From NCBI GenBank assembly GCA_002104895.1, contig MCFG01000597.1:1-25032 (forward strand): DNA of 25,032 nucleotides, written 5' to 3'. Each line of letters begins with the position of its first letter. Position 1 is the stretch's first letter. A model generated the notes under the pieces. The model saw nothing but the letters and a program-made list of their open reading frames with translations, was not told where the DNA came from and searched no databases. This document shows, one piece after another, positions 15,403 to 18,400 of the stretch. The stretch is from Anaeromyces robustus (Eukaryota > Neocallimastigomycota > Neocallimastigomycetes > Neocallimastigales > Neocallimastigaceae). A program made the position numbers and the translations under genes.

Positions 15403-18400
15403 ATGCAAATAAGACATATAAAGACTATTATTTCTGCGGGGAATCTCCCTGCAAAGATAACAGCAATGGCATGGTCACCAAATAATCAAAAATTAGCAGT
15501 TGTTGGTGTTGACAGAATTATATATTTATTTGATGAAACGGGTGAAAAAAAAGATAGATTTACAACTAAACCTGCAGATCCGAAAGTATGATATATTAGA
15601 TTTTAATTGATATAAAAATAAAAATAAACAATAAAAAAAAAGAATAATATAAAATAAAAAATAAAAAATAAATTAAAAATAGAAAAAGAGAAGGAAAAGA
15701 GAAATATAAATGAATATAAATGATATATATATTTTTCTTTTGATACTAATAATTATATTTTATTATAATGTTTATTATTAAGACAAATAAAAATTATCAT
15801 GTTTGTGGATTGGCATTCTCACCAGATTCAACTAAATTAGCTGTTGCTCAAACTGATAATGTCATTTTTGTATATAAACTTGGTCTTGAATGGGGTGAGA
15901 AAAAAACAATTTGTAATAAATTTATACAATCTTCAGAAGTTACATGTTTGACTTGGCCACATGAACAAAACAACTCTATTGTTTTTGGCTTATTTGATGG
16001 AAAAGTAATAGCAGATCAATAATAATTAATATATAATATTTCTTTATTATAATTTTTTTAAATAAATAAAACACAACAAATAATAACAATGACAATAATA
16101 ATAATAATAATAATAATAATAATAATAATAATAATAATAATAATAATAATAATAATAATAATAATAATAATAATAATAATAATAATAATAATAATAATAA
16201 CAATAATAACAATAATAATATATTACAACAATTATTAATTTATTATAAATATTTAGGTAAGAGTAGGAAATCTTAAAGTTAATAAATCAGCTACTTTATA
16301 CCAAACAGATAGTCCTGTTATATCCACTGCAAGTAGTCCTGATGGTTATGCTATTATTACAGGTCATTTAGATGGATCATTGAATAGATTTTTCTTTGAT
16401 GATGGAATATCAGGTGCCTCACAGGTATATTAATATATATATATATATATATATATATATAAAACTCTGGGTTATTAAATAATATTATAATAATTAAATA
16501 ATATTAATAAAGGGTAAATTTGCTATATGTAAAACACCACCTACAGCATTAGCATGGGGTGAATCTATTTGTGCTGGTGGAAATGACAGAACTATAACTT
16601 TCTTTGATTTTGATGGTGAATTTTTAATATTTTTAAATATTATATATAATTAAAAATAATTTTTTTTATCATTAACAAATAAAATATGAAGTTAATATTT
16701 AAAATTCGAAAATAAAAAAAAAAGCAAGAAAAAAAATAAGAGAAATATTAAAAGGAAATTATTAATATGATAATTTTTTGATTATTTTTTTTTTAAAAAA
16801 AATTATATTTATTTTAAACTTATAGGGAATGTAATTCAAGAATTTGATTATTCAAGAGATGAAGAAGAACAAGAATATACTATTGCAAGGTTTAGTCCAA
16901 GTCATCAAACTGCTGTTGTTGGAAGTTTTGGAAGATTACATATTTATAATTATGATAGTGCTGAAAAAAAATGGAATGAAGCACCAATGAAAATTATTGA
17001 TAATATATATACTATATCAGCTATGGCGTGGAAACCAGATGGATCAAGATTGACTATTGTATATATATAATATAAAGAATAATTTTTTTTAATATTGATT
17101 ATATAATATGTATATATAATATTAACTAATTAAAAAATTATAATATTATATATATATATATATATATATTCATTTTGAATTATATCATTTTATAATCAAT
17201 ATAAATGATATAGGGTTCATTATGTGGAGCTGTTGAATTGTTTGATTGTTGTTTAAAAAGAACAAGATATAAAGGAAAATTTGAATTTACATATGTTTCA
17301 CCAAGTCAAGTTATAGTAAAAAGATTATCGACTGGATCAAGAATTGTATTAAAGTCACATTATACATATGCCATTACAAAAGTTAATATATTTCAAGATC
17401 AATTTTTAATTGCAAATACAGCAAATACATTATTAATGGGTGATTTAACAACATGTAAATTAAGTGAGGTAAATAAAAATTTAAGAATTAATCTCAAATC
17501 ATAAATAAATAAATAAATAAATAATACTGTCTGTGTGTTATATAAACATACATATAATTGGTACCATTCTAACAATTATATATATATATATATATAAAGA
17601 TTCCATGGAGTGGATGTGGTAATGAAAAATTTTATTTTGAAAATCCAAAAGTTTGTATGGTTTTTAATGCTGGTGAATTGTCATTGATTGAATATCCTTT
17701 TATTATTATAAATTTTTTGAAAAGTTATAAATTATTAATTAATAAATTCAGGAACAATAATAATAATAATAACAATAATAATAATAGCAATAATAATAAT
17801 AGCAATAATAATAATAATAATATTTTTAGTAGTTTTTTACCCTTAATTTTATGTCAATACATATGGAATAAATGAAATTTTAGGTTCATGTAGAACAGAA
17901 TATATGAATCCACATTTATTAAGGTATGTATAAAATTATTAATTAAATAAAGCGTTTTTAATTGTATAATATGTTTTTTATTATGTATTAAAATATTTAT
18001 TATATATATGAATTCAAATTTTTAAATTAATTAAATATAAAAATTATAAATATATTTATAATATATAAATTATGATGATACAGTGTAAGGATTAATGAAA
18101 GAAATGTAGATTGCGAAATTAAGAAAATTGCTTATTTAGTTGATCTTCAAACTATTTATGTTCTTGATTTAATTTCTGGCATTACAGTTGCTTCAATAAA
18201 TCACGATTGTAGAATTGACTGGCTAGAAGTAATAATATAATTATATTAATAATTTAATTCCTTTTTTTTTTTTTAGATTATATAATAATAATAGCAATAA
18301 TAAAAAATTACATCATATTTTAATTATTATTATTATATTATTATTAATATTGATATTTATTATAAATAATATTAATAATTGTAATAATAAAGTTATCAGA

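Follow-up and report, generated by a model that had tools for sequence, protein, structure and literature searches.

How does the IFT172 gene in the window (the whole stretch of DNA analysed, 25,032 nt, with a G+C content of 17.8% by base frequencies) continue after an exon that reaches its end without a GT donor? An open reading frame rich in asparagine codons runs on through the following bases, and an initial annotation of this DNA had read those bases as an intron of the minor, U12-dependent class. We are highly confident in the answer that positions 17692-17860 are a U12-type AT-AC intron within IFT172.

The gene model that we built occupies 15403-24124 of the plus strand, is complete, and has 27 coding exons that encode 1728 amino acids with no internal stop once spliced. 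Of its 26 introns, 25 have GT-AG ends in the model and one has AT-AC ends. Homology identifies the predicted gene as IFT172: the match with the protein P0121 covers 1728 residues at 95% identity, Chlamydomonas IFT172 (8bd7_S) aligns to residues 1-488 (E 7e-170) without a gap at the joint discussed below, and exon 21 matches the Chlamydomonas protein separately (E 1.8e-103).

Splice signals and reading frame of intron 7

In the gene model, exon 7 (17600-17691, plus strand) closes with GA of a split Glu codon, and exon 8 (17861-17923, plus strand) is placed by the model together with the alignment of homologues. Read directly, exon 7 ends in ...TTGATTGA and exon 8 begins with ATATGGAATAAATGAA, the joint being GA/A TAT GGA in phase 2 (the stroke marks the cut). 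Intron 7 lies between them at 17692-17860 of the plus strand, is 169 nt long, and is defined by direct reading, the gene model, homologues and scoring. The restored frame, the phase and the 20-residue peptide expected from AT-AC joining all reappear in our spliced translation.

The donor ATATCCTTTT (17692-17701, plus strand) agrees with the U12 consensus in 10 of 10 positions, as had been claimed for an exon end with no GT donor, while the other 25 donors of IFT172 reach 3-7 of 10, so intron 7 is the only one among the 26 with a full score. The U12-type consensus given in the accessible part of PMC2846911 is RTATCCTTT for the donor and UCCUUAACU for the branch site. The branch-site element CCCTTAAT stands at 17840-17847 and the AC of the 3' splice site at 17859-17860, both on the plus strand; with the second A of the element (17846) taken as the branch A, its distance from the last base of the intron is 14 nt, exactly the spacing first reported. 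The element has one mismatch to TCCTTAAY, scores 7/9 against TTCCTTRAY, and pairs with the GUAAGGA region of the U12 RNA of the same genome at -5.8 kcal/mol. By itself it is less telling than the donor, since the score of 7/9 is also attained by the best 9-mers in 4 of the 25 other IFT172 introns, none of these four containing CCTT.

Because ATAT stands after both cut points, five cuts give an identical mRNA, with the ends AT-AC, TA-CA, AT-AT, TC-TA and CC-AT; AT-AC is the sole pair known as spliceosomal ends, and GT-AG is not among the five. A first-order Markov model of the window puts the chance of the 10-mer donor at one place at 6.7e-6, that of CCTTRAY in 11 branch places at 1.5e-3, and that of the donor together with the branch core, over the five cuts, at 4.8e-8. 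Donor, branch site and termini all mark intron 7 as U12-type, and its splicing is presumably U12-dependent and not U2-dependent. The U11/U12 di-snRNP would recognise ATATCCTTTT as the donor and CCCTTAAT as the branch element, U11 would then give way to U4atac/U6atac, and two splicing steps would join GA to A, restoring the conserved WD40 part of IFT172.

Unspliced, the frame 17573-17875 enters intron 7 and stops at 17875 (TAA at 17873-17875), and it is open just as the initial annotation had described it. Its asparagine-rich portion originates, by direct reading and frame translation, in an AAT-rich stretch at 17756-17822 of the plus strand, within the intron. This stop could be put to use if intron 7 were an off-switch under regulated retention, and U12-type introns are reportedly spliced less efficiently than U2-type introns (PMC2952598, in the part available). 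However, a stop is commonly brought in by any unspliced intron, and we regard regulated retention as improbable.

Minor spliceosome components and the U6atac donor box

The components were searched for in the whole assembly of the window (70.2 Mb, 769 contigs). Covariance models place U6atac at C1:239650-239797 (61.5 bits, gathering score 33) and U12 at C81:92871-93038 (57.4 bits, gathering score 53). A U4atac candidate scores 40.4 bits (E 4.8e-4), below the gathering score of 53, with a model that also matched 11 of 14 control genomes at E<=10, none of them above the cut-off. The candidate carries an Sm site, AATTTTTGGAA, and a segment, CGTCCTTATCAAGG, that is perfectly complementary over 14 nt to CCTTGATAAGGACG in the U6atac of the same genome; these two features are strong support for a putative U4atac. 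Compared with the Rfam consensus, one pair of the U4atac/U6atac duplex is altered on both sides (C-G to U-A). The duplex of the genome's own U4atac and U6atac has -26.5 kcal/mol and that of its U4atac with the consensus U6atac -20.1 kcal/mol, but the energy argument is one-sided, since the genome's own U6atac pairs almost equally well with the consensus U4atac (-25.1 kcal/mol). The U11/U12-25K protein is recognised by Pfam on one exon (37.2 bits), and its joined exons match 8r7n_B, named 'U11/U12 25 kDa protein' (E 1.5e-6).

U11 RNA was not found in the whole assembly by its covariance model at E<=10, nor by a pattern for its 5' end that allowed 3 mismatches, and the U11-48K zinc finger (PF05253) gave no match in the assembly; both searches ran without a positive control, the named control genomes being bacteria and archaea. 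Two loci did match the U11 pattern with 3 mismatches; one of them (L075) is unlike U11, and neither it nor the other (L074) matches RF00548 at E<=1. We infer that a U11 exists in this genome. The initial annotation had proposed that the lineage keeps a working minor spliceosome and had named the RNAs and proteins to scan for: this stands for U12 and U6atac, both above the cut-off, and for U11/U12-25K, U4atac has a candidate below its cut-off, and U11 RNA and U11-48K were not found in the searches described. A complete absence of minor-spliceosome components, which would have spoken against the intron, is not what the genome presents.

The U6atac gene (L001 1501-1648, that is G000:C1:239650-239797, minus strand) departs from the known RNA at the very place where it should meet the donor. 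In the Rfam alignment GCCG replaces AAGG in the donor box and GGC replaces AGC at positions 26-28, positions 10-20 reading GAGCCGAGAGA where the consensus has GAAAGGAGAGA. Relative to RF00619 it has in common the full-length match, the U4atac pairing, the U12 helix I region and the terminal T run, and it differs at 12-14 (AAG to GCC), at 21-22 (AG to CA) and at 26 (A to G, AGC becoming GGC). Since the pairings with its partners and the terminal T run are kept, the full-length locus does not look like a pseudogene, judged by sequence. A truncated copy with only the 5' part (L040 1495-1535, G000:C766) also has GCCG, and a pattern with two mismatches allowed gave 5 sites, none of which has the canonical box.

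Opposite the donor, the altered box sets C14 against C6 and C13 against U7, and its pairing with the donor of IFT172 is predicted to weaken from -9.2 kcal/mol with the consensus box to -3.0 kcal/mol; the introns of this genome keep the donor RTATCCTTT despite the GCCG box. According to the accessible part of PMC4980772, a P120 reporter with the donor mutation CC5/6GG (minigene wild-type donor ATATCCTT) was rescued in CHO cells partly by U6atac GG14/15CC alone and nearly fully by U6atac GG14/15CC with U11 GG6/7CC, from which it follows that G14-G15 of U6atac pair with C5-C6 of the donor. A search for donors complementary to the new box (RTATCGGY with the branch element) gave 3 sites, judged by their matched letters, and 2 in the control, with no sign of a compensated class. 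A hairpin between GCC (12-14) and GGC (26-28) of U6atac, at -6.8 kcal/mol, was rejected, as 48 of 200 shuffles fold equally well (z -0.58).

For the contacts with U12, we assumed a register of helix I in the present U6atac and U12. In this assumed register, GGC at 26-28 makes helix Ib fully paired with GCC of an unchanged U12, and two pairs of helix Ia are each altered on one side and both still paired. It is a tentative reading, to which we give slightly less than even confidence, that the minor spliceosome of this lineage is rewired in the U6atac core: AAGG would have become GCCG and the catalytic AGC would have become GGC, with the pairing to U12 and U4atac kept or improved, RTATCCTTT retained, and the choice of the donor left to U11 and proteins. 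If so, the pairing left would consist of U4-A16, C5-G15 and weak outer pairs, nearer to the mode of the major U6. The change may come from functional drift, from compensation at another place or from a canonical gene that is missing. We did not find it described in the accessible parts of the literature on U6atac, PMC4980772 included; it is possibly a new feature, a surprise and a lead worth following. It turns the amount of U6atac-donor pairing required by minor splicing into a testable question.

Candidate U12-type introns elsewhere in the genome

Counts of motifs do not single out U12-type introns in this genome. Over the whole genome, the strict motif pair (branch element 6-14 nt from the acceptor) has 5 matches, which are 3 distinct sites, and the reversed pattern has 1 match, with no clear enrichment; the loose pair has 77 sites and its control 114, so that counts alone show no enrichment either. 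None of the strict-pattern sites stands up as an intron: C75 has an uninterrupted in-frame stretch of 66 nt, C164 a stop 4 codons upstream, and C427 only 18 open codons downstream. Of the loose-pattern sites, 61 lie in the loci covered; the other 16 belong for the most part to a single repeat or to low-complexity sequence. A coding filter (at least 30 open codons on each side) is passed, within the loci covered, by 11 of 36 distinct RTATCCTTT sites, of which L073, L046 and L059 are probably not introns. Since these loci were selected for the motif, three of the four decoy patterns do not occur in them, and the fourth passes in 2 of 12. The filter alone thus gives many false positives, and therefore homology was relied on instead.

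Among 42 loci examined, ten that have a reading frame before and after the candidate intron were chosen by eye (L011, L023, L024, L035, L036, L044, L056, L060, L061 and L066), and their acceptors were picked to restore the frame, hence are partly fitted. Six of the ten show clear homology to either side of the splice, namely CCT2, IFT144, SMC3, a CDK-like gene, EXO84 and MSH3; in EXO84 the Pfam range crosses the joint, and in MSH3 the alignment is gapped close to it. An XPG-like candidate has weak homology (E 0.0036), and L011, L023 and L024 have no Pfam match. The candidate intron of CCT2 has GT-AG ends and the other nine end in AC. The distance from the A of CCTTRAY to the 3' end is 25-116 nt in the ten candidates versus 14 nt in IFT172, and four of them (51, 65, 75 and 116 nt) are outside the branch range of -40 to -5 scored in PMC2846911, as far as that source was available. 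Since the motif was demanded by the search itself, the wrong branch site may have been taken where some of these distances are long.

IFT144 (L066, G000:C556) is a second intraflagellar-transport gene that also has an AT-AC U12-type intron. In the window, the only other ATATCCTTTT on either strand belongs to 2441-2538, which looks like an AT-AC U12-type intron of 98 nt with the A of GAACTTAACT about 25 nt from its end; its removal turns a frame of 75 amino acids into an intact protein of 143 amino acids, with no family match above the curated cut-off.

Some AT-AC introns are removed by the major spliceosome, and intron 7 could be one of them, a reading favoured by the weakened complementarity between U6atac and the donor and by the U11 RNA that was not found. 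However, a donor that agrees 10/10 with the U12 consensus and a branch element CCTTAAY at 14 nt from the intron end argue against U2-type removal, as do the minor snRNAs and the 25K protein in the genome and the same donor in introns of six other genes with homology on both sides. It therefore seems very unlikely that intron 7 is spliced as a U2-type intron.

Homologues across the joint and comparison with known systems

The homologue set comprises 240 proteins from two protein searches (120 of 256 and 120 of 1088 matches listed), and 207 of these 240 listed proteins span the joint in BLASTP. From -8 to +12 residues, 204 of the 207 are ungapped, the exceptions among these listed homologues being P0034 and P0052, with local differences, and P0150. 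P0121 (JGI source, in a cluster of 38) is continuous across the joint position with no insert; its 1726 amino acids are encoded on a contig of 5259 bases in one unbroken frame and, since the present gene has 26 introns, we take the contig to be a transcript (cDNA) of a close relative. That removal of intron 7 restores the conserved protein is confirmed for the predicted product by this comparison.

The third exception, P0150, is the annotated IFT172 of another chytrid, Polychytrium aggregatum, and continues at the same codon as EYPFCRCCC..., without the conserved segment kept by other chytrids. Tyr-Pro-Phe is compatible with coding by TATCCTTT, and because these residues can be so encoded at the same codon, the same intron is probably present in Polychytrium and misannotated as coding. 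If the intron is shared, ATATCCTTT should probably be found there at that codon. This read-through matches the earlier expectation that gene finders would run into the intron, and it shows how an AT-AC intron with a trinucleotide repeat can mislead them, as apparently happened in Polychytrium.

The last alternative, that the asparagine-rich stretch is coding and only a GT-AG intron is removed, has the open frame 17573-17875, a GT at 17829 and an AG at 17883 in its favour (the intron would be 17829-17883, and not 17828-17882 as first given), but we give it next to no credence: it loses about 7 conserved residues (GINEILG) and adds about 45, many of them Asn, a gap near the joint is present in only 3 of the 207 listed spanning homologues and an Asn-rich insert in none, the one long insert (Polychytrium) is a different sequence, P0121 at 95% overall identity has no Asn-rich stretch and so contradicts it, and its donor GTAGTT is unlike the other GT donors of IFT172.

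Elsewhere in the window, a coiled-coil-like frame on the minus strand (9380-9724) resembles the TPH domain (trichohyalin-plectin homology) weakly and below the cut-off. The L1 ribosomal protein encoded in the window shares 97% identity with a protein that bears the label Orpsp1_1, which denotes an Orpinomyces genome, and this makes a neocallimastigomycete the likely source of the DNA.

In a search of titles and abstract openings in the literature on minor splicing in Neocallimastigomycota, chytrids and IFT172, we did not find a published account of the IFT172 AT-AC intron. The accessible text of PMC13216214 counts IFT88, IFT74 and IFT80 as genes with minor introns and mentions IFT172 only for its down-regulation. 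PMC10639083, in the part available, reports minor introns and minor snRNAs in Neocallimastigomycetes (Piromyces finnis and Neocallimastix californiae) and no convincing minor introns in Ascomycota or Basidiomycota; no individual gut-fungus intron, IFT172 intron or U6atac sequence change was found in that part. The present genome, probably of the same fungal class, likewise combines minor introns with minor snRNAs. Minor introns in this class are therefore already published, and the IFT172 case adds an individual cilium gene in which minor-class splicing is well supported for an early-diverging zoosporic fungus. Compared with the U12-type AT-AC introns of PMC2846911, as far as they are set out there, intron 7 shares the donor, the branch element, the 14-nt spacing, the AC end and a host gene that is otherwise GT-AG, and differs from them in containing an internal AAT repeat.
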